Of a stretch of 64,000 nt of DNA, positions 38,117 to 56,068 are shown in pieces. A program made the translations under genes and the position numbers. The first letter of the stretch is position 1, and the number at the start of each line of letters is the position of its first letter. The DNA is from Nitrosarchaeum sp. (GTDB taxonomy: Archaea > Thermoproteota > Nitrososphaeria > Nitrososphaerales > Nitrosopumilaceae): positions 416,488-480,487 of the forward strand of contig JAILWJ010000001.1 in the NCBI GenBank assembly GCA_025699025.1, read 5' to 3'. The notes beneath the pieces are model-generated. The model saw only the letters and a program-made list of their open reading frames with translations. It ran no database searches and was not told the origin of the DNA.

Positions 38117-38506
38117 TTAGCATTTTGAGATTGTCGTGATCTTTTCTAATAGTACATCAATGTCCACTGGTTTTTGAAGGATTGTTGTTATTCCAATTTC
38201 TTTGAATTTCTTTTGATTCTCTTTGGTAATGTTTGATGCTGTTAAAATTATGATTCTTGAAAGTTTATCTGGAGATTTGATTTTTTCTAGAATCTCATAA
38301 CCGTCTAATTCAGGCATGGCCAAATCTAATAAAATTACATCAAATCTTTCCTTTTGCAATGTGTCTAGGCCATATTTTCCGTCATTTGCTATGATGCATT
38401 TATGATTATTTAGTCTCAAAAACGTAGAAATCATTTTTGTAATCTGTTCGTTATCGTCTATAATCAGAACTGCCAGTTCTTTTTTTACGGATAGCGAATC
38501 GCTCAT
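38117..38506 (-). CDS. Single-domain response regulator
   Basis: 129 residues, a receiver only: D17-D18 acidic pair, phospho-acceptor D61 in VILLDLAMPELDG, the T in LTAS and Lys in QKPV. 4 bases before the kinase gene and overlapping the TrmB-type gene by 4 bases (ATGA-like), so the three are coupled. Confidence 0.92.
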   Translation of the reverse strand: MSDSLSVKKELAVLIIDDNEQITKMISTFLRLNNHKCIIANDGKYGLDTLQKERFDVILLDLAMPELDGYEILEKIKSPDKLSRIIILTASNITKENQKKFKEIGITTILQKPVDIDVLLEKITTISKC

Positions 38507-39453
38507 TTTACCCCCTCATTTTTTATGTGAAAGTTTTTTTGTAGATAATTTAAGATTAATTTTTCTTGCTCTATTTCCCGTAATCTGTGTTCAAATTCAT
38601 TTTCTATTGTACTTGAATCATCTTTTTCTAGTACGAAAATTGATTTTCTCCAAATCAATCTAAACAATGATTCTAGAGTCATTACAAATGATCTAGAATC
38701 AGTCCAAATTGCCATAAATTCTGATTCAGGATTATTTATGAAAAATAACACTTCAGAGTCATCTTTGATTATAAAAGAAAAGTTTTCTTTATGGCTCTCA
38801 TCTAATTTTTTTATATTTTCCAACTCTAGTCCTTCGAAGACATAATTTCCTTTCTCTGAGAATGTTGTCAAAATTTCCAATCGCACTTTAACATTTTTTA
38901 AAAATTCTACAAAATCAGTATGATAAAATCTGATGAAGTTAGTTTCAGATCCCAAGATATGGATGCATTCGTTTGCTGTTTTTGTCATTTGTTCAATTTT
39001 CACCAAAATCGGATTCCGTCCTTGCAGTATCTGAAATCTATTGTCTTCAGAATCATCATTCTGTTTTCCTATCTCGGGTAACGTATTCCACAACGAGAGT
39101 ATTGTATCTTTTTTGGATTCTAAATCTGAAATTCTTTTTTTCTCATTATTGATCAAAACTGTTACTGCCTCATTGATTGGAATTGAATTAAATCTTGATG
39201 GTTTGCCAAATATTGAAAATATTATCCCTTTCTGCTCCAAAGAATTCAGAAGATGGTATGTCTCAGTTCTTGGAATCTTTAGATTCTTAGACAACTCTGA
39301 GGCTGTTTTTTCTCCAGATTTTGTTAAATGAATATATATTTTTGATTGGTTTGGGGTTAATCCATACTGCAATAGTATTTTGTTTATCTTCTCTACAGAT
39401 TCATAGTGCTTGGTACCGTGCGATATACCTTCTACAACTTCTTCCATTGTCAT
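38503..39453 (-). CDS. TrmB-type HTH regulator (copy 1)
   Basis: 316 residues: an N-terminal winged helix (QSKIYIHLTKSGEKTASELS, IPRTETYHLLNSLEQKG) and a coiled-coil plus ligand-type C-terminal region. Very similar to the gene at 54416-55261, including the PRTETYHLL helix and an FMAIWTDS/FAMWTDS block near the end. Likely a transcription regulator of the pilus locus. Confidence 0.85.
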   Translation of the reverse strand: MTMEEVVEGISHGTKHYESVEKINKILLQYGLTPNQSKIYIHLTKSGEKTASELSKNLKIPRTETYHLLNSLEQKGIIFSIFGKPSRFNSIPINEAVTVLINNEKKRISDLESKKDTILSLWNTLPEIGKQNDDSEDNRFQILQGRNPILVKIEQMTKTANECIHILGSETNFIRFYHTDFVEFLKNVKVRLEILTTFSEKGNYVFEGLELENIKKLDESHKENFSFIIKDDSEVLFFINNPESEFMAIWTDSRSFVMTLESLFRLIWRKSIFVLEKDDSSTIENEFEHRLREIEQEKLILNYLQKNFHIKNEGVK

Positions 39454-39525: not shown

Positions 39526-40221
39526 TCATGAGCCTACTTTCATTGCACTGATTATAATGTCTCCATAAATTAACTGTATAATAAATCCCCCAATTATCAG
39601 TAAAAGATACGGTATGCCTGGAGTTATCCACGTGTTTGGTTTTTTTTCAAATTTTTCAGTCTCTGCATTATGCAATGACAAAACTATTTTTTTAGACGCA
39701 CCTTCTTGTTTTTCCATTATAAATCCATATTTTGGGTTTTTAGATCTATAGCCAATAAAAATTGCCAGTGTCTTCTTCCACGTTGGTTCGTCAAACTCTG
39801 CAAAGATATCCTCATTTCGTAAAACAGATATTAAATTTCTTGATACGTTTACAAACAATGGCAATACAAATAGCACTGCAGCATTAGACAGGGTGGTAAA
39901 CGGTGTAATCGTATTTTCTGTTAAGGTGAATTGTGGTGCAATCACAGATAATGCAATCAACGCAAACGCATCGGCTCCTCCAAACAAACCCATTCTCCAT
40001 GCAATTAATGAAATGGGTGTAATCATCAGGGCAAACAACGTGGTAAATGCAAACTCTATAGGATGAGGCTCTACAAGGATTAATGCAACACCTGCGCCTC
40101 CAAAACCAAGCCACAAGTAATCGTGTACTTCTCTTTTCCATACGTCAAAAAATCCACCTATTGCCAGCATTCCCAATGCGAGGACAATTCGTATGAAAAA
40201 TAGGTCTTGTATCACATCCAT
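39526..40221 (-). CDS. Prepilin peptidase (PibD/FlaK-type, A24 family)
   Basis: 231 residues with about six transmembrane helices. The two catalytic Asp of the family are in G-G-F-F-D-V-W-K-R-E-V and in G-G-A-D (the GxGD motif). A cytoplasmic loop sits between. Cleaves class III signal peptides of pilins in this locus. The nearby RRA-type pilins are its probable substrates. Confidence 0.85.
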   Translation of the reverse strand: MDVIQDLFFIRIVLALGMLAIGGFFDVWKREVHDYLWLGFGGAGVALILVEPHPIEFAFTTLFALMITPISLIAWRMGLFGGADAFALIALSVIAPQFTLTENTITPFTTLSNAAVLFVLPLFVNVSRNLISVLRNEDIFAEFDEPTWKKTLAIFIGYRSKNPKYGFIMEKQEGASKKIVLSLHNAETEKFEKKPNTWITPGIPYLLLIIGGFIIQLIYGDIIISAMKVGS

Positions 40222-40346: not shown

Positions 40347-40610
40347 ATGCGATTTCTCAGTACACTTCATAATCCTAATACTGAAAGATATGGTATCTAT
40401 TATTCTGTAGTGTTGGTTGCAGTGATTGGGACAGTGTTGGTTCAAAACCTTGGTCTTATTCACATGTCTCCAATTGAGGGCGGAGCCGTATTTATTGAAG
40501 GGTTTGTTTCCTTGGTAATGCTTGCCAGGCATTCTAAAACAAGAGAATGTTTTCCGCATCATATCTCCAAACTCAAATTTATGTCCAAGTTATCTGTCGC
40601 GAATTCTTGA
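40347..40610 (+). CDS. Small two-helix membrane protein
   Basis: 87 residues from ATG 40347 (MRFLSTLHNPNTERYGIYYS). Two hydrophobic helices then a basic tail. Lies on the opposite strand between the prepilin peptidase and the surface protein, overlapping the latter by 21 bases. Codons upstream to 40251 are unlikely to be used. Confidence 0.55.
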   Translation: MRFLSTLHNPNTERYGIYYSVVLVAVIGTVLVQNLGLIHMSPIEGGAVFIEGFVSLVMLARHSKTRECFPHHISKLKFMSKLSVANS

Positions 40611-43154
40611 GATACTTTCTTTAATAACTTCAAATTTCTCAATGAAGTTCAGCTTGCCAGAGATGTCTTCGAGGCGATTTGTTTTCCTCAAATAGAAAAA
40701 TGCTGCACCAGCTGCTCCAGGAATTGTAAATAACATTAGATTGTTTTCTGAAATTATGTTTTCTGAATTTATGTCCTTGTCAGGACTGGCAGTGGCAATT
40801 ACTGTGATATTTTTTTGTGTTTTTAGATCTGTAAAACCAAGACCATTTACAGTAACATAAATTTCCAAATTGTCTGTATCAATTTGATTGATTTTTATTT
40901 TTGCTTTTCCTTCAGAATCAGTAGTTAAATCTGAATCTAATATGTTTCCACCTATGACATTCCATCTCACATCAAAGTTCTCCACAGATAAATCTGATTC
41001 AATGTATTTAACAGTCAATTCTGCGTCTAATTCACCGCCCTGTTCAATTGAATTTGGGGCATTGAGCGAAATTTCCGGGTGAAATCCGTTTACATTTAGA
41101 TGAAAATTTGTCATCGGCAAATCCTCGGCTAAAATAGTAACTTCGGTAGACCCCTCAGATATTGCATTTATTTGAAACGATTTGTAATAATCCCCTTTCT
41201 CAAATACTATGGTTTCGGGTAATTGTAAGGATTTTTGATTGTTTGAGACTATTTTTAATTCGATTGGATGTTTGGCATACACGGGATTTCCTGCCGAATC
41301 CAATAGTTGAACTGAGGCAACATTCTTAGTCATGGGCAATATGTTTTCTGCAAATGATAATTCGATTATGGTTGGATCTGTAGTCATGCTTTCTAGTGAT
41401 ACGGTGGTCTCCAATCCTATTGCTTGTGCTGTAATGTCACTTGAGCCTAGCTTGTTAGCATGTGCTGTGATTATGGCATATTCTTGATTCTGAGATATTA
41501 TTTCAGGAGATATTTCAAAATACTCGTCAGCACTAAATGTTAAAACCGAATTCTTGATAAAATGAGTGACTCCAATCCTACCATCTTCTTCCTCATCATC
41601 TGTGTTTGATGTGGTTTCTTCATCTTCTGATTCTGATTCCACCAGATACCCAATTACTGGAAACCCTGAATTGGATAGTATTTTTGGAATTAACGGTTCT
41701 ACCACGAGATTGAGATCATCCTCTAATGGTCCGTTTGGATCTCCTGACACTGTAACAGTTCGTTTGTTGTCTGTAACATAAAATTCTAGAGAGGTTCCTT
41801 CATCTGGAATGACCGTACCCGTATCACCAAAAATCAAGCCAGCATTTTTCCCTTTTAGAATGACTGCGTCATCAGGATTTACTGTCTCCAAATTTGACGA
41901 TGCGATATCAATTGAAAAATCTTCACTTGACATTACTGGTACTTTTACGGTTACTCTTTCTCTATTTGTGGTTCCTAATGTACTAGTTCCATCCTGTCTA
42001 GATACCTCTACTTCAGTTTCAAAATATGTTACTCCCAAAATCTCTCTTTCACCTGTTGTCAAAAATGGAACTGTTTTGGTAATTGCTGGTCCTTTGCCTT
42101 CTAACGAACCAATCTCATCATGAGTTACTTTTACAGAATCCCCTTTAGAAATGTAATTATCTGCGGTAATGAAAAAATTGTATGTTTGTTCAAATTCACT
42201 AGTGAATGAGGATGTGTTTGGTCGAATTGAAAAAGTAGAGAAAGTCGAGTAACGTCCTTCCTCAATTACAAGTTCTTTGGACTTGAACAAAAACTCTTCA
42301 AAATCATGACTAGTATTAATTCCTGAGTTTGGATTTTCTACGCCTATTCGTAAATTAATGTTCTTGTCTGCCTTTACAGGAATGCCATCGGCGTCTTGTA
42401 ATTGAATAATAGCATATCCTATTTGAGAGCTAAAGCTGTTGAAATTTTCTGGAAATACATACAACTGTAATTGTAATGGGGATGCAGCTTTTCTGACATG
42501 AATGAATTCACTCACTTTTTTTATTCCCTCTGACTCTGCAAAAATTATTGCATCCCCTGATCCTCGTACATCAAATTTTGTTAATGCATAATATTCGCCT
42601 TTAGGAATTAGAACTTCTGAATCTTGGAGGGCGATGATGTCTGTATTTGGTGTGGATATTTTCACAACAGTGTCCTCTAATGCAATCGTGGGCAGGTTTC
42701 CTGTTGTTGCAAGTTCAATTCCAATGTATCCAAATTTTGGTCCATCCACAGGAAAATCATTTGGAGTGGTTTTTAGTAATAATTTTGTCGGATGATTGTT
42801 GTTTGTATATACGTTGATTGGAATCTCTTTGGATTTAATTCCAGGTGCTGCCAATGATAGATTTACAGTGCCAGGTTCTTTTGCAAAAATTTTAATTTCT
42901 GTTGAAAAATTTTCAGTTTGCCTAACCTCTTGAACCTCCAATATGGAATTGTCCGAGCTTGATACCTTTAAGCCATCAATTATTGTGGGGGAAATACGTT
43001 CTCCATTTAACACATATACATGAATTATGCCTTCAGTGTGCTCCAGTAATTTCTTGGGGTGAACCTGGTAGCCAAACTCATCATATGTTTGAGCATGAAC
43101 TGGGGCAAACAATCCTGTTGCAAGTATTATGGTTAACACTAGTGTAGCCTTCAA
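40590..43154 (-). CDS. Large surface protein with Ig-like repeats
   Basis: 854 residues: a signal peptide (MKATLVLTIILATGLFAPVH, then AQT), several beta-sandwich Ig-like or invasin-type repeats of about 100 residues, an acidic region (about residues 516-532) and a C-terminal transmembrane helix (GAAGAAFFYLR) with a basic tail. Sits between the prepilin peptidase and pilus platform on the same strand, so a role in surface attachment or pilus anchoring is plausible. Not matched to a named family. Confidence 0.7.
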   Translation of the reverse strand: MKATLVLTIILATGLFAPVHAQTYDEFGYQVHPKKLLEHTEGIIHVYVLNGERISPTIIDGLKVSSSDNSILEVQEVRQTENFSTEIKIFAKEPGTVNLSLAAPGIKSKEIPINVYTNNNHPTKLLLKTTPNDFPVDGPKFGYIGIELATTGNLPTIALEDTVVKISTPNTDIIALQDSEVLIPKGEYYALTKFDVRGSGDAIIFAESEGIKKVSEFIHVRKAASPLQLQLYVFPENFNSFSSQIGYAIIQLQDADGIPVKADKNINLRIGVENPNSGINTSHDFEEFLFKSKELVIEEGRYSTFSTFSIRPNTSSFTSEFEQTYNFFITADNYISKGDSVKVTHDEIGSLEGKGPAITKTVPFLTTGEREILGVTYFETEVEVSRQDGTSTLGTTNRERVTVKVPVMSSEDFSIDIASSNLETVNPDDAVILKGKNAGLIFGDTGTVIPDEGTSLEFYVTDNKRTVTVSGDPNGPLEDDLNLVVEPLIPKILSNSGFPVIGYLVESESEDEETTSNTDDEEEDGRIGVTHFIKNSVLTFSADEYFEISPEIISQNQEYAIITAHANKLGSSDITAQAIGLETTVSLESMTTDPTIIELSFAENILPMTKNVASVQLLDSAGNPVYAKHPIELKIVSNNQKSLQLPETIVFEKGDYYKSFQINAISEGSTEVTILAEDLPMTNFHLNVNGFHPEISLNAPNSIEQGGELDAELTVKYIESDLSVENFDVRWNVIGGNILDSDLTTDSEGKAKIKINQIDTDNLEIYVTVNGLGFTDLKTQKNITVIATASPDKDINSENIISENNLMLFTIPGAAGAAFFYLRKTNRLEDISGKLNFIEKFEVIKESISRIRDR

Positions 43155-43216: not shown

Positions 43217-44665
43217 CTAAAACAATGCCCCAATGCTTACAATGGAACTTTGTATGAGCAAAATGCTTGCAAATGCAATCAAAACAAGCATGATTGAATA
43301 TTGAAATCCTCCAGAATATGTCCCTGTTACCACTCTGCCTAAGAAGATTCCTGCAAGCCATGCCTGCATTAAAATCGCAATAGAATACATATCAAAACTT
43401 TCTTTAGATTCTTGTTTTAGATCTAAAATTTTTTGAGGATCGGTTTCAGACTGGATGGAAATGCTGGTTAAAGAATCAATTACTAATAATGTTGTAAATC
43501 CCGTCATCCCTATCAAGATAAAGCCAATCATGATATACGGTCTTAACATACTTCTTTTTGTTTTCTCAATGTTGTGAATCTTTTCGGAAACGTCTGCCAA
43601 CGCAATTAATGTGTGAACATTACCTCCTCCACCTGCAATGATTTCAAACAATATCTTGAAATTGATCAACACTTGAAAATCATTTATCTCTTTTCTTAGT
43701 GAAGAAAATATCTCATCAAACGGCATTCCCCATTCTAATTTACTTGCAATGGCATTTGCAATTGAAGAGAACAGTTTGTAATCATTTCTTTTGCATGTTC
43801 TAATGACACATTTTTCGGGGCTGATCCCTGCCTTTCTTGATTCAGCAATATCTCTCATGATTCTAGGGGTGGAATCTTCGGCGTCCAGTGATTTTTGGTA
43901 TGTGGATTTGAATTTCATTGCAGGAAAGATGGCAGATGCCACAAGTACAAACATGATAATGAATGCATTGTATTCAGGGACAATTCCCAAATATGTTAAA
44001 GAAAACCCAACTCCAAACATTGGAACTACATATATCAAAATTTGCTTTGTTGGTAATTCAGGCAAGAATGAGTCATTAACTTTGCTTGCAAGAAAAATGA
44101 ACCCAAGTGAAATGACTGGTGGCACTACTATTAGCATTAACTGAATGTCCAAATTAGATTTCGTAGGAGCAGTGCCTGATCCTGCTCCTGAATCCACTGC
44201 TGAAAAAATAATGTACACTGCCAAAATTACGATTTGAATTGTCATGTATGACTCTACAACTGCCTTTACTTTGCTGATCTTTTGTTTTTCATTTTCAGCA
44301 TAAACGTCGAAAGCACCATTCATTTTGCTTTTCAGATAGTTTACAATATCGCCGCCGCCCTCAATGGCAGAAACATACCCGCCAAGAAAATCAGACATTA
44401 ACCTTGATGATGTTTTTTCTTTAGCCTGATTAATAGCAGATATTGGATCTACACCCAGAATTTCAATTCGCTTGAGAATTCTCTCAGATTGGGTTTTTAC
44501 TGCAGGGAGCAACTCTATGTTTCTAATTTTTTGAAAAATTGTATATGGTCCAAATCCACTTGTAGCTAACAATGTTACAAAGGTGATGAAATACGGTAAC
44601 TCTTTTTCTAATTTCTTTTGCTCTTTTCTATCAATTTTGTTGCGATTTTCTTTTAATGAGAGCAA
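43217..44665 (-). CDS. Pilus platform protein (GspF/ArlJ-type)
   Basis: 482 residues with two T2SF-type domains (about 20-120 and 265-400) separated and followed by transmembrane helices, seven or more in total. This is the membrane platform on which the ATPase assembles pilins. 3 bases after the ATPase gene. Confidence 0.9.
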   Translation of the reverse strand: MLSLKENRNKIDRKEQKKLEKELPYFITFVTLLATSGFGPYTIFQKIRNIELLPAVKTQSERILKRIEILGVDPISAINQAKEKTSSRLMSDFLGGYVSAIEGGGDIVNYLKSKMNGAFDVYAENEKQKISKVKAVVESYMTIQIVILAVYIIFSAVDSGAGSGTAPTKSNLDIQLMLIVVPPVISLGFIFLASKVNDSFLPELPTKQILIYVVPMFGVGFSLTYLGIVPEYNAFIIMFVLVASAIFPAMKFKSTYQKSLDAEDSTPRIMRDIAESRKAGISPEKCVIRTCKRNDYKLFSSIANAIASKLEWGMPFDEIFSSLRKEINDFQVLINFKILFEIIAGGGGNVHTLIALADVSEKIHNIEKTKRSMLRPYIMIGFILIGMTGFTTLLVIDSLTSISIQSETDPQKILDLKQESKESFDMYSIAILMQAWLAGIFLGRVVTGTYSGGFQYSIMLVLIAFASILLIQSSIVSIGALF

Positions 44666-44668
44666 AAA

Positions 44669-46210
44669 TTACACCCCATAGTGAATCATATTGAGAATTT
44701 CGTTTGGGTTTCTGTAATATTTTCCAATTATTTCACTGGTTTCTTTATAATCACGAATATTGTGATTTTTCATCCATTCTAAAATTGCAATTCTTTTTTG
44801 ATATTCGTTTATTATATTGCCAATTGTTTGCCCTTGTGCATCTGCGATTCTTTTTATTAATTCACTCTTATCTATTTCAGAATCAAATGATTTTGTTTTT
44901 GGATTCCACTTGAATACTGAATTAAATGAATTGTTGTCTTTGATTTCTTCAATGGAGATTATTTTTCTGCTACTCTGACCTGTTTCAGTATCTTTAATTC
45001 TGCGAATTACAATTGCACAATTCATTAATGTCATGTATGACGGAGGGATCTCCATGGGTTTTTGCTGGAGTCTTTTGGTGGCAGACAAGAGGCTGTCTGC
45101 ATGCATAGTACATAATCCTCCATGTCCCGTAGCCATCGCTTGAAACATGACGTAAGCTTCAGAACCTCTAATTTCTCCAACTATGATGTAATCTGGTCTG
45201 TGTCTTACTCCAGATTTTATCAAATCATATAATCCTATTTCCCCTTCTCCCTGAGTTCCAAAACCCGGTCTCGAAATTAGACTAAACCAGTTTTCATGTT
45301 TTATGTTGATTTCAGATACGTCTTCTACTGAAAATATCTTGTAGTCAGGATCAACAAGACCGGTAATTGCATTTAGGATGGTAGTTTTACCACTTCCTGT
45401 AGATCCAATTACCATGATTGACATTTTTGACTCCATTAACATCCAAAGATATGCCGCAATGGCAGGACTTAGGGTCTCAAAGTCAATCAAATCCACTACA
45501 GTATATGGGTCTTCTCTGAACTTTCTTATTGTGAAGCTAGTTCCCTTTGGGGTGACCTCTTTTTGGTAAAGAACGGAAATTCTGTGATTTCCTTCTAATG
45601 CCAAATCTGTAATTGGGTGTGCAGAACTGACATGTTTTCCTGCACGAAACACTATTCGTGAAACAAAATTATTCAAATTACTTACTTCAAATTGAATGTT
45701 GGTTGGAATGCTATCAAATTGCCTGTGCCACACATAAATCGATGAATTGATGCCTGCACAACTAACATCTTCAATATTTGGATCTCTCATGAGGCCGTCA
45801 ATAATTCCAAATCCGGCGATATCGCGTCTTAGATAATACTTTACTTTCTCAAGACTTGCCACAGGGTATTTTTGAAATAGTTTCTCGTTTTCCTCAATTA
45901 TGTGATTTAGGAATTTTTCAAAATTATCTCCTTTTGCATTTTCAGCAGAATCTATATTTTCTTCTAATAAATTGTATAATTTGTTAAAAATCTCTTGTTC
46001 TTCATAATTTAGTTTTATTTCATCTACTTGATATTCATAACTAGAATCTTTTTCATTGTATAAAATGTTTGCATAGCTGTATGGTGCATTTAGTGGATAG
46101 TTTTTTACAATTTTTAGATCATCAGATGTTTGTTTTTGATTCGGATCAAAGTATTCGCTACTCAAAAAATTTTCAATTGAATTTGATCTATCTTTTTTCA
46201 TTTGACTCAC
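44669..46210 (-). CDS. Pilus assembly ATPase (GspE/ArlI-type)
   Basis: 513 residues. Walker A VIGSTGSGKTTILN, Asp box, Walker B I-I-V-G-E-I-R-G, His box TGHGGLCTMHAD. The N-terminal third is the usual archaeal assembly-ATPase N-domain. Drives pilin polymerisation with the GspF-type partner. Confidence 0.93.
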   Translation of the reverse strand: MSQMKKDRSNSIENFLSSEYFDPNQKQTSDDLKIVKNYPLNAPYSYANILYNEKDSSYEYQVDEIKLNYEEQEIFNKLYNLLEENIDSAENAKGDNFEKFLNHIIEENEKLFQKYPVASLEKVKYYLRRDIAGFGIIDGLMRDPNIEDVSCAGINSSIYVWHRQFDSIPTNIQFEVSNLNNFVSRIVFRAGKHVSSAHPITDLALEGNHRISVLYQKEVTPKGTSFTIRKFREDPYTVVDLIDFETLSPAIAAYLWMLMESKMSIMVIGSTGSGKTTILNAITGLVDPDYKIFSVEDVSEINIKHENWFSLISRPGFGTQGEGEIGLYDLIKSGVRHRPDYIIVGEIRGSEAYVMFQAMATGHGGLCTMHADSLLSATKRLQQKPMEIPPSYMTLMNCAIVIRRIKDTETGQSSRKIISIEEIKDNNSFNSVFKWNPKTKSFDSEIDKSELIKRIADAQGQTIGNIINEYQKRIAILEWMKNHNIRDYKETSEIIGKYYRNPNEILNMIHYGV

Positions 46211-46255: not shown

Positions 46256-46900
46256 CTAAGTGTTTCCAATGGTTACACTTTGTGGTGCACCAGTTTTTCC
46301 GGCAAAGATGTTCAAGCTGGACGTTGCTCCTGCATCAAGTGATGATAGGGTTCCATCAGGAAGTTGGAAGTAAATTACCATTCTGTCTCCTGGGTTCAAA
46401 CCAACAGGTCCGGTTTGTACTGCTAGACATAATGTTGGTTTTCCAGTAGTAGCTCCATCAAGATCTATGGACAATTCAACAGCAGGTGAACATGTATCCA
46501 CTGATGTTGAATCCTTCATATCTCCATTAGAATCTGTTCCTTCGGAAACAAATTGTGCTTGGAAATTGTCTACTGTGACCCTATCTGGATCTGTATCAAC
46601 ATACCATTGTGAGAATGGCACATTTGTACCTCTGACTTCTATCTTATCTACAGACAAGATTTTATCACCACTGTTTCTTACAGCAGCTGCACCCCATGCA
46701 ATGCCGTTTGCGTCAGTACCATTGACCCACAACTGTACACCTTGTACACTGATTGCTTCTTGTTGTGTGCCACCTTGGAATAGAGATGTGCCATAAACGA
46801 CTACACCTGAACCAAGTACGACTGAAGCCACCAGAATAATGATGGTTGTGAGTACTGTACTGATTGCTCTTCGATTGTTTCGTAGAGGGGTCATTTTCAT
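46256..46900 (-). CDS. Pilin with class III signal peptide
   Basis: 214 residues: MKMTPLRNNRRA then ISTVLTTIIILVASVV, a class III signal with expected cleavage after RRA. The rest is a beta-rich, Cys-containing pilin domain (CSPAVE, TLCLAV). The start may be ATG 46894. A TATA-like stretch near 46918 suggests its own promoter. Directly upstream of the assembly ATPase gene, probable major pilin. Confidence 0.85.
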   Translation of the reverse strand: MKMTPLRNNRRAISTVLTTIIILVASVVLGSGVVVYGTSLFQGGTQQEAISVQGVQLWVNGTDANGIAWGAAAVRNSGDKILSVDKIEVRGTNVPFSQWYVDTDPDRVTVDNFQAQFVSEGTDSNGDMKDSTSVDTCSPAVELSIDLDGATTGKPTLCLAVQTGPVGLNPGDRMVIYFQLPDGTLSSLDAGATSSLNIFAGKTGAPQSVTIGNT

Positions 46901-46953
46901 TAGAAATCAGATCAATTTATGGCATATCTAGAAGAGTATGTAATAATTCAGAA

Positions 46954-48531
46954 TTACATCATTTGTTGTGCGAGAGACGAATAAGCACTGACAAATTTTG
47001 CCACAGTTTTTCTGACCTCTGTATGGGGAAAACTGATTGTAAAGTACTTTGACATTCCATCAGGTACGCCTATGGCAATAACATTTATGCCTGCTCGAGA
47101 GGCCAATTTTACTGCTGATTGAAACTCCTGGTCAATCTCATGATATCCCATAGAGTACCCATCTGTAATCAAAAACAGGTATCTCCGTTCATTAATATCA
47201 TCTTCAAGCATTCTTGTGGCTAATTTCATGGCATCTGGGATAAACGATAATCCTGAATTCTCCATGCCACCAATTCTGGCCTTGATTCTGTCATCATATT
47301 TTTCCTTAAAATCCTTGATCAATACAAAATCATTGTTAAATCCATGAATGGACCACTTTCCTCCTTTGAAGTTGATTTGGTCGGCAGCTTCTGCTATGCA
47401 CATCAAAAATTTCTGCAAATCTTGGAATTGTATCTTCATACTAGCGCTTGTGTCCATCACTATTGCCCAACTTTCCTCATACCTTAATTCCTGATCCTGT
47501 TCAAAATAGGATATGCCTTGAGTTTCGCTAGATACTGCTTGAATTGCCTTTTGCATTTCAACATACCCATAATCTTCAGTATTTGGATCTTCGAGTGTAT
47601 TTGTGACCATTTTTACCTGGTTTCTAATTTTTTTGATCAAATTCGAGCTGTCCATCCTAAGCTGAAAATACTTGCCTAGGTTTTCAGGAGACAATCGAAT
47701 TTTATCAAAATGCAAATCTTCAGCATATTTTTCATATTTTTTTAATAATTTCTGTTCATTTTTCATTTCATTGATCCACATTTCGCCAAGTTTGTCTACA
47801 TAATTACCAAACTCTCCTCTTGGATGGCATTTCAGGTATTTCAGGTATTTTGTAAAATCTGTCGGTACAATATTTTCAACATACGGATATTCCCAAAAAT
47901 CCAGCAAGTTTCTATTGTAATACAGCTTATTTGCCAATTCAATGCGAGTATCTGTGGAATCATTGTTGGTAATTGAATTTAAGATATCTTTTTTCATAGA
48001 TTGTGTTTTGTTTTTTAACATATTTTGAGTTTTAACTTGTTGTTTTTCCTCTAGGATATTTTTAAGATATTTGTTGTATAATATCTGACACGAAAATTCT
48101 ATCATCATTATGTTCTCACAAGGATTTGAATATCTGGATTTAAGATATTCTTGAACACGAATGTCCTCGATTAGTTTTATTACTTTGAAAGCTAGATGAG
48201 GAGATTTTGTTTTTATCCACTCTTGATATGTGGAATAATCCGTTATTGCTGCATGAGCTCCAGTATGATATAATGAAGATAGAAATAATGACCATACACT
48301 TGAAAATGATTCGTTTACGTCATCAAACAAAATTCCCTGGTATAGGAATTTATCTTGGATTTGCCGTGGGTATGGAACTGAAATCTTTGTTATTTCGCCA
48401 TAATGTATTTTTGAGAACTGTTCTGTTCTTGACAAGGTAAATTCTATGCTTGATTTTTCTTTATTTGCAACTTCATAAATAATGTTTGTAGCCAACTCAT
48501 ACAAATTTTCTTTCAAAACTATCTCCACCAC
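46954..48531 (-). CDS. VWA-domain protein (NorD/CbbO-like)
   Basis: 525 residues from GTG 48531. The N-terminal half has the NorD/CbbO markers L-Y-H-T-G-A-H and L-I-E-D-I-R-V-Q-E-Y-L. The C-terminal von Willebrand A domain has a complete MIDAS (D360-T-S-A-S-M-K, then L-F-L-I-T-D-G-Y-S). It overlaps the MoxR-type ATPase by 35 bases. Such pairs remodel or metallate target complexes. Here it sits inside a pilus locus and ends 53 bases from the pilin gene. Confidence 0.88.
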   Translation of the reverse strand: MVEIVLKENLYELATNIIYEVANKEKSSIEFTLSRTEQFSKIHYGEITKISVPYPRQIQDKFLYQGILFDDVNESFSSVWSLFLSSLYHTGAHAAITDYSTYQEWIKTKSPHLAFKVIKLIEDIRVQEYLKSRYSNPCENIMMIEFSCQILYNKYLKNILEEKQQVKTQNMLKNKTQSMKKDILNSITNNDSTDTRIELANKLYYNRNLLDFWEYPYVENIVPTDFTKYLKYLKCHPRGEFGNYVDKLGEMWINEMKNEQKLLKKYEKYAEDLHFDKIRLSPENLGKYFQLRMDSSNLIKKIRNQVKMVTNTLEDPNTEDYGYVEMQKAIQAVSSETQGISYFEQDQELRYEESWAIVMDTSASMKIQFQDLQKFLMCIAEAADQINFKGGKWSIHGFNNDFVLIKDFKEKYDDRIKARIGGMENSGLSFIPDAMKLATRMLEDDINERRYLFLITDGYSMGYHEIDQEFQSAVKLASRAGINVIAIGVPDGMSKYFTISFPHTEVRKTVAKFVSAYSSLAQQMM

Positions 48532-49507
48532 AGATTCTTTTTACAATGATGCGCACCTCTTCTTGGACTTCTATATCGTCACTGGTCAGTGCAATGATTG
48601 TTTCTTCTGCAGATTTCTCAACTGAATTTCCATCTGCTGCAATTTTGGCCCAATTTACAAGATCTCCAACTGATGGGCCATACGGCAGATCTCCTTGCTG
48701 ATACTCTTGTCTTAGTTTAGCACCAATCTTTACAATTTTTTCAGCAGAATCTCGATCTACATGTGCCCTGTCACAAACGAGCTCAATTTCTTTTTCATCA
48801 ATTTTGTCCCCTACGCTCATATAATCAAAATTCAACCAAACACTCATCCTTCTTCTCATGGCAGCATTGAGAGGTTTTGTCCCTGCAAATTCTGCAGAAA
48901 ATGGATTCATGCTAATTATGAGATATGCATGCTTGTGTCTTGGAATCAACTCGTTGTCTTTTTCAGTTAAAACTAGATGTCCTCTTTGATCCAGAATAGG
49001 ATTTAATCTTGTGGCAACATCTTGCTTCATCATGTTTGCTTCATCGAGATATAGAATTCCCCCGTATCTGCACCAGTTGACAATCAAACCATCAAGCCAA
49101 TTTTCTTTTCCCAAACCCACATATCGTCCAAAAAGATCAAATACCGATGTCTGCAAACCGCAATTTATCTCCCACATTGGAAGTCCAGCTAATTCTGAAA
49201 CAAGGTAAACAATGTGAGTTTTGCCTGTTCCACTGGGTCCAATTAGTGCACATTGCTTAAAAAAACTCAATGCTCGTGCGATCCTATTTACATAATTCTC
49301 CCCATTGTCTAGATATGGTGGTGTGTCTTTTGGAATTAATTCCTTCATTTCATCGCTAAATGAAAATGCATTTTTATCCAAATACTTTGAAATGTCATAT
49401 AATGTATCTAATTTTTCAGATTTTTTGTTAGTCTTTGAGATTGAAAAATTCAAACTAAATTTATCATTTTTAACACTGTCTTTTTGAGTGAAATCCTCTA
49501 ATTGCAT
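48497..49507 (-). CDS. MoxR/NorQ-type AAA+ ATPase
   Basis: 336 residues from ATG 49507 (TTG 49525 adds six residues). Walker A GPSGTGKT at about 90-97, Walker B G-I-L-Y-L-D-E-A, sensor S-M-N-P and an RRR arginine-finger block. A CbbQ/NorQ-type ATPase that works with the VWA protein whose gene it overlaps. Probably remodels a client; the client here may be the pilus machine or a pilin. Confidence 0.9.
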   Translation of the reverse strand: MQLEDFTQKDSVKNDKFSLNFSISKTNKKSEKLDTLYDISKYLDKNAFSFSDEMKELIPKDTPPYLDNGENYVNRIARALSFFKQCALIGPSGTGKTHIVYLVSELAGLPMWEINCGLQTSVFDLFGRYVGLGKENWLDGLIVNWCRYGGILYLDEANMMKQDVATRLNPILDQRGHLVLTEKDNELIPRHKHAYLIISMNPFSAEFAGTKPLNAAMRRRMSVWLNFDYMSVGDKIDEKEIELVCDRAHVDRDSAEKIVKIGAKLRQEYQQGDLPYGPSVGDLVNWAKIAADGNSVEKSAEETIIALTSDDIEVQEEVRIIVKRICGGDSFERKFV

Positions 49508-49573
49508 AGTGGTAAAAATTTGCAATTATTGTACATATTGCCGATGATGTAACTTCAAATGACAGACACTTTG

Positions 49574-49584
49574 TTAATATCCAA
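49574..49584 (+). promoter_or_regulatory. TATA box of the SecB-like gene
   Basis: TTAATATCC lies about 26 bases before ATG 49603. The intergenic stretch is only about 95 bases, so the divergent MoxR and SecB-like genes may share control elements. Confidence 0.35.
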
Positions 49585-49602
49585 ATATTTCCAATCCACA
49601 AT

Positions 49603-50220
49603 ATGCAATTTAATCTCGGAATAGAATCATTTAATGTAAATAATACTTCTAAAGAGAATTTAGATTTTAAAAAATATGATATAGACGTGTCACTAAATGA
49701 AATTGAAAATTCTGGTAATTCATGTACATTAAAGTATGGATTTACATTTAGTTCGTCTCCAAAAGGAATACGATTAACTCTTGAAGGAACAATAACCATC
49801 AACGGCTCTCCAATGGAATTTGAAAACTTATATCAAAAGGATGAACAAAATATGCCCAACATATTACGTCAGTCATATCATGAACTATATCCTGTGTTAT
49901 TTATGATAGCAAAGAGCATGAACATCCCATGTCCACCATATGAAATTAGCAAAACGATGGATACATCATCAGAAAAGATTGAATCTCAAGGTGAGATCCA
50001 TGACTCCAAATCAGATACAAATAGTAATGCATCAGACAAAGAAGAGACTTCCATTTATGATTCCATGAGTACTGAAGAACTAACAAAAATGCAAATTGAT
50101 CTAAATAAGGAGTATTCTGAAACTCCATCTGAGGAGTTGAAAAGCAAATTAGATGCAATTACGGACATTCTAAACAGGAAGATCAAAGAATCTGTAGTTT
50201 CACCACAAAATGTAAGTTAG
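49603..50220 (+). CDS. SecB-like chaperone candidate
   Basis: 205 residues. Residues 1-100 alternate beta strands (Y-D-I-D-V-S-L-N-E-I, L-K-Y-G-F-T-F), followed by a helix and YPVLFMIAKSMNIPCPPYEI, which recalls the SecB tail where a YP.....PP pattern lies. A disordered, Ser/Glu-rich linker and a coiled-coil end follow. If right, it could guard pilins before export. The SecB match is by eye and uncertain. Confidence 0.6.
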   Translation: MQFNLGIESFNVNNTSKENLDFKKYDIDVSLNEIENSGNSCTLKYGFTFSSSPKGIRLTLEGTITINGSPMEFENLYQKDEQNMPNILRQSYHELYPVLFMIAKSMNIPCPPYEISKTMDTSSEKIESQGEIHDSKSDTNSNASDKEETSIYDSMSTEELTKMQIDLNKEYSETPSEELKSKLDAITDILNRKIKESVVSPQNVS

Positions 50221-50268
50221 ATTCAATAACATACTGACCAATATACCTAATTTTTATTGAATGCTGTT

Positions 50269-50724
50269 ATGGCATTCACTCATCGGAGAGCACTAGCATC
50301 AATTGTTACCAGTGTGATTCTTTTATCATCGATTGCTATGCTCGGAGTGGGTCTTGTGGGTTGGTCAAATTCCAACTTGTTGTCACATCAAAGAGATTTG
50401 GAAACCACATTTTCAAAAAACATTAACAAACTAAATGAGCACATAACATTTGAAAAAATTTGGTTTGGTGGAACCAGTCCCAATAAATTTGTCAGCATTA
50501 CAATTACAAATACCGGAAACATTGGGTTAAACGTCACCGAAATACGATTCGTCGATTCTGATGATTTGACTGAATTATTTTCATCTACAATATACGATGG
50601 TGGAATTGCAATCTCTGAATCATATGGATCAGAGATTAATTACGATTGGACATCGGGTTCTGCATTTGACATTTTGGTAAACACCAATCGGGATACCGTA
50701 TTTAGAACTCAGGTGAGTCCATGA
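50269..50724 (+). CDS. Small pilin-like protein with class III signal
   Basis: 151 residues from ATG 50269 (TTG 50257 possible): H-R-R-A then LASIVTSVILLSSIAMLGVG, the same RRA-type class III signal as the pilin. A beta-rich external domain has C-free Asn/Thr-rich segments. Likely a minor pilin. Confidence 0.75.
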   Translation: MAFTHRRALASIVTSVILLSSIAMLGVGLVGWSNSNLLSHQRDLETTFSKNINKLNEHITFEKIWFGGTSPNKFVSITITNTGNIGLNVTEIRFVDSDDLTELFSSTIYDGGIAISESYGSEINYDWTSGSAFDILVNTNRDTVFRTQVSP

Positions 50725-53198
50725 AAAATCGTCGAGCATTAAGCACATTAGTTGGAGCAGTATTTTTTATAATTGCTGCATCAAGTACTGTTGCATATGT
50801 CTCATACAGCATGAATGTAATCGATAATTTTTCACAATCAGTAATAATCAAGGAGAGTATAGATGAAGCAAGAAACTCCGAATCATTTGAAATAACGGAT
50901 GCCATAATTTCAAACAACAAATTTGATTTGACAGTTCAAAATACTGGCAAACTACCTGTTAAACTAACAAAATTATGGGTAGAAAACACCACTGACACGA
51001 CATGGAATGCAACGAGGTTCATTATTGATCAAACTATTCCGCCATCAGGTTCTGTGAGCGGTATTGGTCAGAGCATCTCTTTGTATGCAGTAGACACTCA
51101 GGCATACAGCCTATCACTGATTTCTGAAAGAGGAAACAGTAAAACTTTTTCATTTAATTCCGTTCCTGATCAATCAATTTCAATTAATCTTCATGCAGCT
51201 CCAGAAAACATAGCAAATGGATTCTCCACAACATTATTCATGACAGTGACAAATGATTTGCCTACTGAAACAACATTGTTGAATGTGGTCCCTCAATTAA
51301 CAATGTCCGGAGCAGCATCTCCGGTATGTGACACTTCATCATCTCCTTCATCAAAACCTGCATTGAAAAGAGGGGAATCAGTGATTTTCAAATGGTCATG
51401 TACAATTACAGGCTCAGCATCGCAGTCTAGCACATTTACCGCATCAATTGTCAATGGAATTCCGGGAAATGATGCATCCGTCACAGTCACAATTCAGGAT
51501 GTATTGCTGGCACTAGAATCTGGAACATCATTAGAATCTCTCGGATTTACCATCCCAAGCGTAAGTCCAGACATTCTGATAATACACCAAGAAACAACAA
51601 ACACCCCAAACGGTGAATATCAACTCAGTTCAGGCTCTGCAGATAGCACTGGATTGACAGTTGATCTTGATCAAAACAATATGCAATTCATATCCAATAA
51701 TAAAACATCCACCATCTCAATTCCTGCTGGAAACTGGAATACGTCATTGACATACCTTAGCTCTCCGCTGGACTCTTCAATCAATACATCTATACTTACA
51801 AATGGAATGATATTTCATTTTGAAGATAACACGGATCCACATCCAAACTCATCTACAGGGACAAGCTGTGATAACGAAATAAGCGCGGATATCCCAACAG
51901 GTACAAACTCGCCTTTATGGACAAGCAATTCTGGAGCATATTCAAGCGGTGGATACACATTTGATGGCAATGACTACATCAGTATTAACGTCAGTACGTC
52001 ATGTAATGATCTGGATAATGGACCAAATAGTTCTGCCGGATGGTTTAACGTGGATAGTACTGGGGCAAATGGCAGACAAGTGATTTTACGTGCAGAAGAG
52101 AGCAATCCAGGAACAGAGTTTTATGAAATCGTGTTCGATAAATCCGGAACTGTCGGAACATTGCATTTTAGATTCGACTCCACTGAAGGAAAAATCATTG
52201 ATTGTAACATTACAAATGTGACCACAGATGAATGGCATCATTTTGTGGCTGTTCGTGAAGATTCTGAAAACTGCACACTGTACTTGGATGGGGATGGAAT
52301 GATTGATACGGATCAAGATACAAGCAATCCAAATAATACGATATTAACAGTAAATGGGAATTGGTTGATTGGGGCTAATCCAAATACACAGGGAGGGCAA
52401 ATCAATGAATTTTTCGAAGGTCAAATTGATTCAATAATGCATTGGGAGGAATATGCATTAACATCATCTGAGGCATTGGCGTTGTACGATACAAAATATG
52501 GTGATGGCGCACATGTGGTTGATTATACCATTGAAACAGTAGATACATCAGGACAAAAGACAACAATATACTCACAATCAAATGTGGCAATGGAATTCAT
52601 TGATCCTCTTCAAGATCTGACTGATTTCTATACATCCGGAAATATTACGGCAGCAATGGGAGCAATAGATTTGGTAAATGAGAGATTGCTGTTTACCATA
52701 AATTTTGTTGAAGGATTGGGAATTGATGTAAGAATTGATGATTCTGATTTGACAAATCCGCTTACATCATTTGTTAAATTGCCTATGCCATCCACCACTT
52801 TTCCAGGATACTTTTCTTATGATACCTCTTCTGGTAATTATCAGATAAAAGTTGCAAACACGGGTTCCGTGGGGGCATTTTTCACAATATCTGGAATCCG
52901 AGGAGTTTTTGATGCTACTGAAACCGAACAAGCCTTTGCATCAATTCCACAATATGTGAATGGAACAGGAACGGAGTTTTCCCTGACTGACACCAATGAT
53001 AGTGTGTATTTACCGCCTGGGCAAAGCATCACTATTGAATTCTACCCACCTACAACGCATCCATCTGTAGATGGGCAATACGGGACAAGCATTACGCCTG
53101 GTGATGACTATAATTTCTACATCTATCTATCCGGATATGATGAAACGGGAAGAACTTTCTTTAAAACCATCGATATTGGCGGAGCCACAGTATACTAG
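50721..53198 (+). CDS. Giant pilin-like protein with LamG lectin domain
   Basis: 825 residues: M-K-N-R-R-A then LSTLVGAVFFIIAASSTVAY, a class III signal. Then an Ig-like region (about 50-260), a LamG/concanavalin-A-like domain (about 375-600; YTFDGNDYISINV, DEWHHFVAVRED, LYLDGDG, GQIDSIMHWEEYAL) and a further beta-rich part to 825. Probably a tip adhesin with a carbohydrate or surface-ligand domain. The start overlaps the small pilin gene by 4 bases. Confidence 0.85.
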   Translation: MKNRRALSTLVGAVFFIIAASSTVAYVSYSMNVIDNFSQSVIIKESIDEARNSESFEITDAIISNNKFDLTVQNTGKLPVKLTKLWVENTTDTTWNATRFIIDQTIPPSGSVSGIGQSISLYAVDTQAYSLSLISERGNSKTFSFNSVPDQSISINLHAAPENIANGFSTTLFMTVTNDLPTETTLLNVVPQLTMSGAASPVCDTSSSPSSKPALKRGESVIFKWSCTITGSASQSSTFTASIVNGIPGNDASVTVTIQDVLLALESGTSLESLGFTIPSVSPDILIIHQETTNTPNGEYQLSSGSADSTGLTVDLDQNNMQFISNNKTSTISIPAGNWNTSLTYLSSPLDSSINTSILTNGMIFHFEDNTDPHPNSSTGTSCDNEISADIPTGTNSPLWTSNSGAYSSGGYTFDGNDYISINVSTSCNDLDNGPNSSAGWFNVDSTGANGRQVILRAEESNPGTEFYEIVFDKSGTVGTLHFRFDSTEGKIIDCNITNVTTDEWHHFVAVREDSENCTLYLDGDGMIDTDQDTSNPNNTILTVNGNWLIGANPNTQGGQINEFFEGQIDSIMHWEEYALTSSEALALYDTKYGDGAHVVDYTIETVDTSGQKTTIYSQSNVAMEFIDPLQDLTDFYTSGNITAAMGAIDLVNERLLFTINFVEGLGIDVRIDDSDLTNPLTSFVKLPMPSTTFPGYFSYDTSSGNYQIKVANTGSVGAFFTISGIRGVFDATETEQAFASIPQYVNGTGTEFSLTDTNDSVYLPPGQSITIEFYPPTTHPSVDGQYGTSITPGDDYNFYIYLSGYDETGRTFFKTIDIGGATVY

Positions 53199-53254: not shown

Positions 53255-53758
53255 ATGGAATCTATCGATCCTAGGTTTGCAGTGGAGCAAAACAAATCTA
53301 GCACGCAAACTAATCAAGAACAACATCCTAGCTTACAATATATGAATTCATTAATTCAAGAATCACTTCAAATTTATGAATTAGAAAATCAAAGAATTAA
53401 CACATTAGATGAATTAACAAACTCTCTGAAGATAATTACAAAGTTTTTAGGATTTTCAATAGAACTATCACAAAACCTACTGCATCTAGATTCTGAAACA
53501 AAAATAAGATTGCTGCCAAATCTAAATCTAATCATTGTAAAATCCAACAGTAAAACAGAAGAAAAATCAATAGATAGTTTTCCAACAGATGTAATAATTA
53601 ATGTTTTAGATTATATAGTTCCAAAAATAGTAGAACTCGTAAGATTGGAAAAACTGCAACTTTTAAACAGCATTAACTTTTTACGCGCTGCAAATGATGA
53701 TCTTAAAAAAATAGACAACATTGGGCAGTTGGAATTAAACTCTACACCGGTGATCTGA
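53255..53758 (+). CDS. Helical protein linked to pilus genes
   Basis: 167 residues, mainly helical (ESLQIYELENQRINTLDELT), no membrane segment, no recognised domain. One-base overlap with the next gene (TGATG), so the two are coupled. Confidence 0.6.
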   Translation: MESIDPRFAVEQNKSSTQTNQEQHPSLQYMNSLIQESLQIYELENQRINTLDELTNSLKIITKFLGFSIELSQNLLHLDSETKIRLLPNLNLIIVKSNSKTEEKSIDSFPTDVIINVLDYIVPKIVELVRLEKLQLLNSINFLRAANDDLKKIDNIGQLELNSTPVI

Positions 53759-54303
53759 TGAACCTGTTAAATTTTGAAACTATCGCGGATTTTAAGACAT
53801 ATTTAGAGAATCAAATAAAATCAGAAACATTACATCTAGAAGACATTTCTAAAAAAGCAGGCGATCTATTAAGAAACAATGAAAAGGAATTTGAGGAAGA
53901 CAAGGAATTTCTATCCATTAAAGAAAAACTAGAAGATAAACCTGCTGATAAAAAAACCAAAAAAAGTAAAAAACAAACATCATCCAATTGGATAAAATAT
54001 GAATCGATTAGCATGTATAATGGGATGGGGGTAAAGGGAGAACTGGAGTTGCTTTTCAAACAAATTGAAAGTCTCAAGTTAAAATTGGAGCAATTAAAAT
54101 CCACTGCACGTTCACTTGACACACTAATTTCAAAGGGGCTCAAAAACAATCTAAAATGCCTAGTTGCTGAAGATGAAGAACAATTCGAGATGGTTTTACT
54201 AAAATCATCAAGTGAGCCTAGGGCAAAATTCTCGTTTAAAAAGGCATTTTCAGTATACCCACAGTTTGAAAAACCATTGTTTGCGGAGAGTGTAATTCAA
54301 TGA
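53758..54303 (+). CDS. Coiled-coil protein linked to pilus genes
   Basis: 181 residues; a Lys/Glu-rich first half, then two helices (about 95-130) that look like a coiled coil (LELLFKQIESLKLKLEQLKS). Soluble, no known family. Coupled to the preceding helical gene. Confidence 0.6.
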   Translation: MNLLNFETIADFKTYLENQIKSETLHLEDISKKAGDLLRNNEKEFEEDKEFLSIKEKLEDKPADKKTKKSKKQTSSNWIKYESISMYNGMGVKGELELLFKQIESLKLKLEQLKSTARSLDTLISKGLKNNLKCLVAEDEEQFEMVLLKSSSEPRAKFSFKKAFSVYPQFEKPLFAESVIQ

Positions 54304-54415: not shown

Positions 54416-55261
54416 ATGAAAGAACGCACAATATCCCTATTTGATGCAGAGTCAGACTCTACGCTGAGCGAATACAAGTCAAATTTGGAACAAGTTCAAC
54501 AACAATTATCAAAATATGGCCTTACTGGCAATCAGTCCAAAGTCTACATATACCTTGGAAAATATGGTGCACAGACTGCACCCGATGTATGTAAAGCCTT
54601 AAAGCTTCCAAGAACTGAAACTTATCATCTCCTTTCAGCTCTTCAAAACAAAGGCATTGTGTCTGCAACATTTCAACACCCAATACAATTCACCGCACTA
54701 CCATTAGAAAAAGCTATTTGGATTCTAGTTAATTCAGAGAAAGAACGTGTGAAATCCCTTGAAAAGATGGAAACACATCTATCTGAATTATGGAAGACCA
54801 TACCAACATTTGACTCAAACCCAAAAGATGAAGAAGACAAATTCCAGATGCTTAAAGGTTCAAACCAAATATCATCAAAGATAACTGAGATGACTGATGG
54901 ATATTCAGATGAATTGCTGTTACTTGGCAGTGAAAAAGATCTCATAAGATTATACCACTCTGACTTTTTAGAACCCTTTGAAAAATCAAAACAAAAATTT
55001 AGAATTTTAAGCTCATGCGGAGAGAAAACACTATACATATTTGACAACCTTGAAAGAAAAAACATCAAATCACTAAATAGTAACATTCAAGATAATCTGT
55101 GTTTTGTATTAAAAGATAATTTGGAATTGTTGTTCTTTACAAAGAATGCAACCCATTCAAATGATACATTTGCAATGTGGACTGATTCACCAGCACTTGT
55201 TTATTCAATGAAATTGTTGTTTGAGTCAATGTGGAATTCCTCAAAAAACATCCACCTATAG
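54416..55261 (+). CDS. TrmB-type HTH regulator (copy 2)
   Basis: 281 residues, same order as copy 1 at 38503-39453: the YGLTGNQSKVYIYLGKYG wing, LPRTETYHLLSAL, a long helix and a C-terminal domain ending FAMWTDSPAL. A good AGGGAGG precedes the ATG. Together the two copies flank the pilus region, one at each end. Confidence 0.85.
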   Translation: MKERTISLFDAESDSTLSEYKSNLEQVQQQLSKYGLTGNQSKVYIYLGKYGAQTAPDVCKALKLPRTETYHLLSALQNKGIVSATFQHPIQFTALPLEKAIWILVNSEKERVKSLEKMETHLSELWKTIPTFDSNPKDEEDKFQMLKGSNQISSKITEMTDGYSDELLLLGSEKDLIRLYHSDFLEPFEKSKQKFRILSSCGEKTLYIFDNLERKNIKSLNSNIQDNLCFVLKDNLELLFFTKNATHSNDTFAMWTDSPALVYSMKLLFESMWNSSKNIHL

Positions 55262-55330: not shown

Positions 55331-56068
55331 ATGAGTGCAACATATGCAAAAGTAAAGACAGGTGTTCCAGGACTAGATTCTATAATATCAGGAGGATTAA
55401 AACAAGGTCGCTCCATTGTCGTTTCAGGACCCCCTGGTTCTGGGAAAACCACTCTGGGATTGCAGTTTTTGCATGCGGGTGCTAAAGATTTTGACGAGCC
55501 AGGCGTATTCATAACATTATCACAGAATATAGAAGAGATAAAAAATGACTGTAAAATGTATGGGTGGGATTTTAATGATCTTGTATCAAAAGACAAAATC
55601 TTGATGATTGACGCAAGACCATTCAAACTGACCGATCAATCTATTGGAAAAGACGATTCACTTTATCGTGGAGAGCAGATCCCATTTGAACACCTTACAA
55701 AATTAATTCTCAGCAGCATAAAGAGGATAGAGGCAAAAAGAATAGTGATCGACTCCATTACTGTGCTTGAGATGCAATACTCTGATGATTTTTACACAAG
55801 ACAAGGATTACAGGGACTGGTTCAGGCCTTGGAGAACTATGGTGTGACATCAATTTTACTATCTGAGGTAATTGATGAAAGTCACATTCCTCCAGAATGG
55901 TTTGTATCATCAGGAGTAATCCAGTTGCGCCATACGCGAAAACAAGATACCATGGAAAGATCAATCCAAGTTACAAAGTTGCGAGGTGTAAGACACAGTG
56001 ATCACATACACCCCATAAATCTCGGAGAAGAGGGATTACAAGTGATGCATCCCAGATTGACCCCCTGA
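55331..56068 (+). CDS. KaiC/RadA-like ATPase, possibly ArlH-like
   Basis: 245 residues, a single KaiC domain. Walker A GPPGSGKT (33-40), Walker B RIVIDSITVL. At the usual catalytic Glu pair (T-F-E-E in KaiC) this one reads T-L-S-Q-N, so hydrolysis may be weak. ArlH, the archaellum KaiC-like subunit, is a possible relative. Its placement beside the pilus locus is suggestive only. Confidence 0.82.
   Translation: MSATYAKVKTGVPGLDSIISGGLKQGRSIVVSGPPGSGKTTLGLQFLHAGAKDFDEPGVFITLSQNIEEIKNDCKMYGWDFNDLVSKDKILMIDARPFKLTDQSIGKDDSLYRGEQIPFEHLTKLILSSIKRIEAKRIVIDSITVLEMQYSDDFYTRQGLQGLVQALENYGVTSILLSEVIDESHIPPEWFVSSGVIQLRHTRKQDTMERSIQVTKLRGVRHSDHIHPINLGEEGLQVMHPRLTP

Follow-up and report, generated by a model that had tools for sequence, protein, structure and literature searches.

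A five-gene module with a CbbQ/NorQ-type AAA+ ATPase, a VWA protein and a predicted SecB-fold protein associated with one type of archaeal type IV pilus

A 64,000-nucleotide stretch of a Nitrosarchaeum genome (contig JAILWJ010000001.1, positions 416,488 to 480,487; hereafter the window) contains a locus for a type IV pilus (T4P) that includes a pair of overlapping genes, one for a CbbQ/NorQ-type AAA+ ATPase and one for a VWA protein. The genome, 1.7 Mb on four contigs, is that of an ammonia-oxidising-type archaeon whose closest named relatives belong to the Nitrosopumilales. The pair belongs to a module of five genes (AAA+, VWA, a predicted SecB-fold gene, and two genes that we call h167 and h181), which is conserved in Nitrososphaeria and Bathyarchaeia. 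The module is co-inherited with one group of T4P assembly ATPases. We propose that the T4P locus has its own cytosolic remodelling or chaperone module serving one T4P type, a proposal with about an even chance of being right.

Read from right to left, the minus strand carries the AAA+ and VWA genes, then a PilA/UpsA-like pilin and the T4P ATPase; a TadC/ArlJ-type platform and an 854-aa secreted protein come next, and a prepilin peptidase and a TrmB regulator close the row. Read from left to right, the plus strand has the SecB-fold gene and a small pilin, then an 825-aa LamG pilin and the genes h167 and h181, and lastly a second TrmB regulator and a KaiC ATPase. The AAA+ and SecB-fold genes diverge, with a gap of 77-95 bp between them. 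An earlier note on this DNA had listed a pilin, the VWA and AAA+ genes, a divergent gene, two further pilins and the ATPase, platform and peptidase, and all of them are present in the window. Its interval, 46256-53198, ends too early, since the two genes at 53255-54303 are part of the set as well.

Co-inheritance of the module with one pilus ATPase group

The arrangement does not result from chance, because the pair and its partners recur at 104 distinct loci when gene order is compared across related genomes. We drew gene maps of 40 pair-bearing regions from the class and of 80 GTDB loci, which partly come from the same genomes. Among the 55 distinct loci that are well flanked (6 kb or more of sequence on either side), all 55 have the VWA gene, 54 have h167 (by profile), 51 have h181 and 45 have the SecB-fold gene. 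The SecB-fold gene is found at 39/39 of the Nitrososphaeria loci and at 6/16 of the Bathyarchaeia loci. The AAA+ tree tracks taxonomy (Nitrosopumilaceae 100/100, Bathyarchaeia 94/94). Hence the module is old and mainly vertically inherited.

Of 200 Nitrososphaeria genomes, 43 have the AAA+ gene and exactly the same 43 have the VWA gene; 41 of these also have the SecB-fold gene. The presence of any T4P-type ATPase in the genome is a weak test of a tie to the pilus: such an ATPase occurs in 33/33 genomes and 52/52 carriers in the phylum versus 356/398 background genomes, which is true but says little. We replaced it by an ortholog-specific test, given below for Bathyarchaeia. All 31 module carriers among the Nitrosopumilaceae have an orthologous T4P ATPase (>60% identity). 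In only one genome is the orthologous ATPase found without the module, and there it is just a contig-end fragment. At 26/26 well-flanked loci in Nitrosopumilaceae the T4P ATPase is less than 6 kb from the module, and in the other Nitrososphaeria the fetched flanks contain it at 9 of 13 loci. One genome (G034) keeps both the module and the T4P core, with about 18 kb between them.

Bathyarchaeia often keep the two apart: a T4P ATPase is in the fetched flanks of the module (within 10 kb) at just 3/16 loci. We therefore compared inheritance in 52 genomes of carrier families, defining the ATPase group by at least 59% identity to the module-linked ATPase of locus L162. This group is present in 29/31 module carriers versus 3/21 non-carriers (Fisher p=5e-9, uncorrected for kinship, so that p overstates the case). 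The two carriers lacking the ATPase group are less complete genomes (85% and 89%). Among the three non-carriers that have it, G324 retains SecB-fold, h181 and h167 at a contig end, the AAA+ gene of G465 runs into a masked or gapped stretch, and G516 is the sole plain exception. In the genera g92, g97 and g101, members hold the module and the ATPase group jointly or have neither. These joint absences within genera are more telling than the p-values. The refuting observation named in the earlier note, a pair that travels independently of pilus genes, holds for location in many Bathyarchaeia and fails for inheritance. The earlier note suggested that the pair may service the pilus machine; a tie to the pilus, and with it a probable service role, is supported by the shared 43 genomes, the 31 Nitrosopumilaceae carriers and the co-occurrence of unlinked genes in Bathyarchaeia.

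The full array of SecB-fold, h181, h167, AAA+, VWA, TrmB, pilins, ATPase and platform is found in three Bathyarchaeia genomes (G379, G493, G513). Variants of the array are found in G487, G296 and G408; G469, G501, G549 and G522 have their T4P operon at another place. Two of the three flanking Bathyarchaeia ATPases are long enough for a tree, and both group with the ATPase of the window (99/98). A second clade of the ATPase tree, apart from the window's group, also contains some module-linked Nitrososphaeria ATPases. In many Bathyarchaeia (L189-L192; L131, L138, L148, L151) the module adjoins SufS/IscU-like and Ski2-type helicase genes. We rejected these neighbours as module partners, as they reflect the synteny of one Bathyarchaeia group only.

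The proteins of the module

The AAA+ gene (48497..49507, minus strand; ATG start at 49507, TTG alternative at 49525) and the VWA gene (46954..48531, minus strand) overlap by 35 bp. The AAA+ protein matches Pfam AAA_5 (69.6 bits, 3.5e-19; cut-off 22) and CbbQ_C (52.4 bits, 6e-14; cut-off 20.6). Its best solved single-ring relatives in the PDB are CbbQ (5c3c, 2e-23) and NorQ (6e-23). The label "MoxR" given to it before has to be narrowed to the CbbQ/NorQ branch. A separate MoxR-type (AAA_3) gene lies elsewhere in the genome, and this MoxR-like paralog is just 30% identical to the AAA+ protein of the locus. MoxR proper is ruled out, since the AAA_3 model skips the AAA+ gene and matches other loci. 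GvpN shares the broad AAA+ class and is ruled out as well: the protein scores 39.3 bits, far under the TIGR02640 cut-off of 266.8, and no gas vesicle genes accompany it. We also rejected anti-phage defence, for which PADLOC yields only a weak P-loop BrxF match.

The VWA protein is a NorD/CbbO-like partner (Pfam VWA, 5e-9) in which neither a signal peptide nor a transmembrane (TM) segment was seen. In a profile search against the PDB, NorD (9qhd) comes first (2.4e-9), with a match that spans only profile positions 328-529; at E<=0.01 the matches are NorD and CobT chains and none is named ArnB. Both proteins look active, because their key residues are invariant in diverse orthologs. These are Walker A, Walker B and the RRR arginine-finger region of the AAA+ protein (14 diverse orthologs), and the metal ion-dependent adhesion site (MIDAS) DxSxS (D360, S362, S364) and D457 of the VWA protein, whose loop-2 residue is S or T (alignment of 19).

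Some orthologs vary in structure. In three genomes of genus g25 (G198, G199, G145; L073:13256-14821, L078:10749-12413, L069:1791-3089) the AAA+ ortholog carries an apparent intein at Walker A with the junction GPSGTGK/..HN/THI, and the L078 copy seems to hold a homing-endonuclease part. In the genus-level group g12 of the Nitrosopumilaceae (L047:12810-14096 and L048, L061, L063, L118, L120-L125, L127) the AAA+ protein has a C-terminal extension of about 90 aa, and in L047 and its relatives the VWA gene has been relocated to the opposite side of the SecB-fold gene.

The divergent gene (49603..50220, plus strand) encodes a protein with a predicted SecB fold at residues about 1-110 and a variable C-terminal tail. 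With 52 homologs as input, AlphaFold2 gave a model (mean predicted local distance difference test score, pLDDT, 84; core >90) in which a long helix comes after four antiparallel strands, as in SecB and Rv1957. The best Foldseek matches in the PDB are nearly all of the SecB family (SP1558-like proteins, Rv1957, E. coli SecB), with probability 1.00 and E-values of 2.6e-4 to 9e-4 for the SecB-family chains. Identity is only 6-12% in the top alignments, and phmmer, a profile search, Pfam and family models all fail to find SecB by sequence. Support from the model is good for the SecB fold and does not extend to a SecB function. Calling the protein SecB-like was a guess when made from sequence, where no search matches SecB, and the fold prediction bears it out. 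Further SecB-fold paralogs (L071:16576-17527, L074:7723-8304, L144:18383-18964) lie near KaiC-type ATPase genes, away from an AAA+/VWA pair.

The two remaining members follow the pilins on the plus strand. The protein h167 (53255..53758), detected by profile, is modelled as a long helix, a small beta part and another long helix (pLDDT 84). Its coil-beta-coil topology resembles prefoldin, and the fold search places prefoldins at ranks 1, 5 and 14. We rejected prefoldin, as these matches are not significant (E 0.36-1.1) and there is no Pfam match. The partly coiled h181 (53758..54303) has invariant G35, R39 and W78 in alignments. A PPR or alpha-solenoid assignment was discarded: the hits, to designed repeat proteins, are local (some 25-30 residues each) and none is significant by itself. 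In four Bathyarchaeia loci (L185:7886-9472, L186:6697-8307, L187:7368-9092, L188:7189-8880) coiled-coil proteins of 530-570 aa have an N-terminus matching the h167 profile, and the one in L187 stands before shikimate-pathway-like genes. In several lineages a small membrane protein (DUF5658-like by eye) adjoins h167, namely in L070, L073, L077, L131, L133, L137, L138, L140, L153, L154 and L162.

The pilus genes and regulators of the window

The assembly ATPase, platform, class III pilins and prepilin peptidase that mark an archaeal T4P locus are all in the window. On the minus strand, the ATPase (44669..46210; Pfam T2SSE 1.1e-34) has ArlI/FlaI as its nearest NCBIfam model, at 357 bits and under the cut-off of 550. 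The TadC/ArlJ-type membrane platform (43217..44665) matches Pfam T2SSF with two domains (4e-13), and the prepilin peptidase (39526..40221) is of the A24 family and PibD/FlaK type (Arc_PepC_II 1.7e-8, Peptidase_A24 1e-5). The major pilin (46256..46900) is PilA/UpsA-like with the class III leader NNRRA/ISTVLTTIIILVASVVLG; its NCBIfam UpsA match (3e-8) is weak and below the cut-off. Homologs of this pilin adjoin the module in Bathyarchaeia. The 854-aa secreted protein (40590..43154), a recurring neighbour of TadC conserved in Nitrosopumilaceae, has a signal peptide, a C-terminal TM segment and no Pfam match, and is probably an S-layer or adhesin component.

Two pilins lie on the plus strand. The minor pilin (50257..50724) has 155 aa and the class III leader HRRA/LASIV. 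The 825-aa pilin (50721..53198; class III leader RRA/LSTLV) has a LamG/concanavalin-like domain (Laminin_G_3 1.8e-14) and is probably an adhesive pilin. This genome also encodes a second T4P ATPase (G000:C1:381388-382755, L082), accompanied by two platform genes and several genes resembling pilins, and there the module is absent.

One TrmB-family regulator is at the T4P core end (38503..39453, minus strand; Pfam TrmB 1.6e-14). The other (54416..55261, plus strand; 2.8e-12) is near the module in most Bathyarchaeia too: a TrmB gene is less than 8 kb from the module at 26/26 Nitrosopumilaceae and 11/16 Bathyarchaeia loci. The KaiC-family ATPase (55331..56068, plus strand; Pfam KaiC 4e-57) is a neighbour of the module at 21/26 Nitrosopumilaceae and 0/16 Bathyarchaeia loci.

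What the module may do

AAA+/VWA pairs are widespread and their clients are mostly unknown. The pair discussed here has been noticed before. In the main text of Makarova et al. (2016; PMC4858521), a vWA protein (arCOG02900) and a GvpN-like ATPase (arCOG00441) are strongly linked to thaumarchaeal T4P loci; by that description it is the same kind of pair, locus and lineage as in the window, and the window's ATPase may accordingly fall in their T4P subclade 4A. The statement in the earlier note that no described pilus has this partner set is thus wrong for the pair. The same main text mentions no SecB-like protein, five-gene set or Bathyarchaeia, and a search of the main texts of open-licence literature turned up no description of the SecB-fold protein or of the five-gene module. 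A 2020 study (PMC7554672) distinguishes four T4P types in ammonia oxidisers and, in the section consulted, does not name the AAA+/VWA pair.

NorQ and NorD are the closest solved structures. As in the window, the AAA+ protein bears CbbQ_C, its partner has a C-terminal VWA domain with MIDAS, and the genes adjoin. The locus differs in that no nitric oxide reductase is nearby, the N-terminal region of the VWA protein has no match, and the SecB-fold protein, h167 and h181 are extra. The Rubisco activase CbbQ/CbbO, for which the comparison covered CbbQ, likewise has an AAA+ protein of the same branch and a VWA partner, whereas there is no Rubisco in the neighbourhood of the window's module. In NorQD, a finger of the VWA protein sits in the AAA+ pore and a linker twists (PMC13036017), and we take this mechanism as our model.

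In the module, the AAA+ protein, presumably a hexamer, would form a NorQD/CbbQO-like motor with the VWA protein. The MIDAS of the latter would dock a client of this T4P type, either the pilus ATPase and platform or prepilins. ATP-driven turning of the VWA protein could then remodel the docked client for assembly or disassembly. The SecB-fold protein may hold hydrophobic client segments bound for export or assembly, and h167 and h181 may act as adaptors or scaffold. We infer complex formation, the client and the direction of action (assembly or disassembly). This T4P type is the likeliest client system, because the module is co-inherited with one T4P ATPase group.

Several points weigh against this proposal. 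Some AAA+ carriers (families f4, f10 and f13) are near a different T4P ATPase clade in the tree. Two f4 genomes have SecB-fold and h167 by a T4P, and AAA+ and VWA are absent from them at the search threshold; these are G095 and G174 (L076:15117-15497, L077:14976-17303), of which G174 also keeps h181. The co-occurrence counts of module and ATPase are phylogenetically non-independent. Remodelling of a pilus is an extrapolation, because the AAA+/VWA pairs described so far have enzymes and metal sites as their targets. Finally, the TrmB and KaiC neighbours fit a regulatory module as well.

Such a module would be a switch for the pilus, in which an ArnB-like VWA protein senses or relays a state under AAA+ control and TrmB and KaiC set expression, with no machinery being remodelled. 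Makarova et al. (2016; PMC4858521, main text) regard the pair as a possible regulatory pathway, the TrmB genes persist near the module in both lineages, and ArnA and ArnB control the archaellum in Sulfolobus. However, the PDB matches of the VWA profile at E<=0.01 are NorD and CobT chains, none of them named ArnB, and no FHA-domain (ArnA-like) protein is among the ten neighbouring proteins scanned. The intact AAA+ motor motifs, the MIDAS adaptor and the SecB-fold partner suggest protein handling, and for this reason we favour remodelling or chaperoning over pure signalling. We consider a switch possible and somewhat unlikely.

The module might also act on another client, an enzyme or an S-layer or surface protein, that only happens to be produced in the same conditions as the pilus. 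Many Bathyarchaeia modules do stand beside SUF-type and helicase genes, far from T4P genes. Yet this synteny is confined to one group, no enzyme family is beside the module in all lineages, and co-inheritance with one T4P ATPase group holds even where the genes are unlinked. Another client is thus improbable. The example of NorQ and NorD, which insert FeB into nitric oxide reductase, suggests that the module might insert metal into a metalloprotein that is associated with the T4P or encoded nearby. This reading appears very improbable: the module neighbourhoods compared have no conserved metalloenzyme, and CbbQO, of the same AAA+/VWA family, remodels without inserting metal.

A bolder form of the remodelling proposal, which we put forward tentatively and regard as rather doubtful, is a five-protein cytosolic machine that, in Nitrososphaeria and Bathyarchaeia, would drive T4P biogenesis as a second engine powered by ATP. 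It would handle prepilins or remodel the ATPase and platform, with a SecB-fold chaperone working without SecA. To our knowledge SecA is absent from archaea; in bacteria SecB feeds SecA.

Co-inheritance points to one T4P type as the client system of the AAA+/VWA pair and adds three partners, so that the client can be searched for directly. If the proposal is true, a SecB-fold protein would have a defined genetic context in archaea, which lack SecA. Models of archaeal pilus assembly, which usually have a single ATPase, would then gain a further ATP-driven factor.

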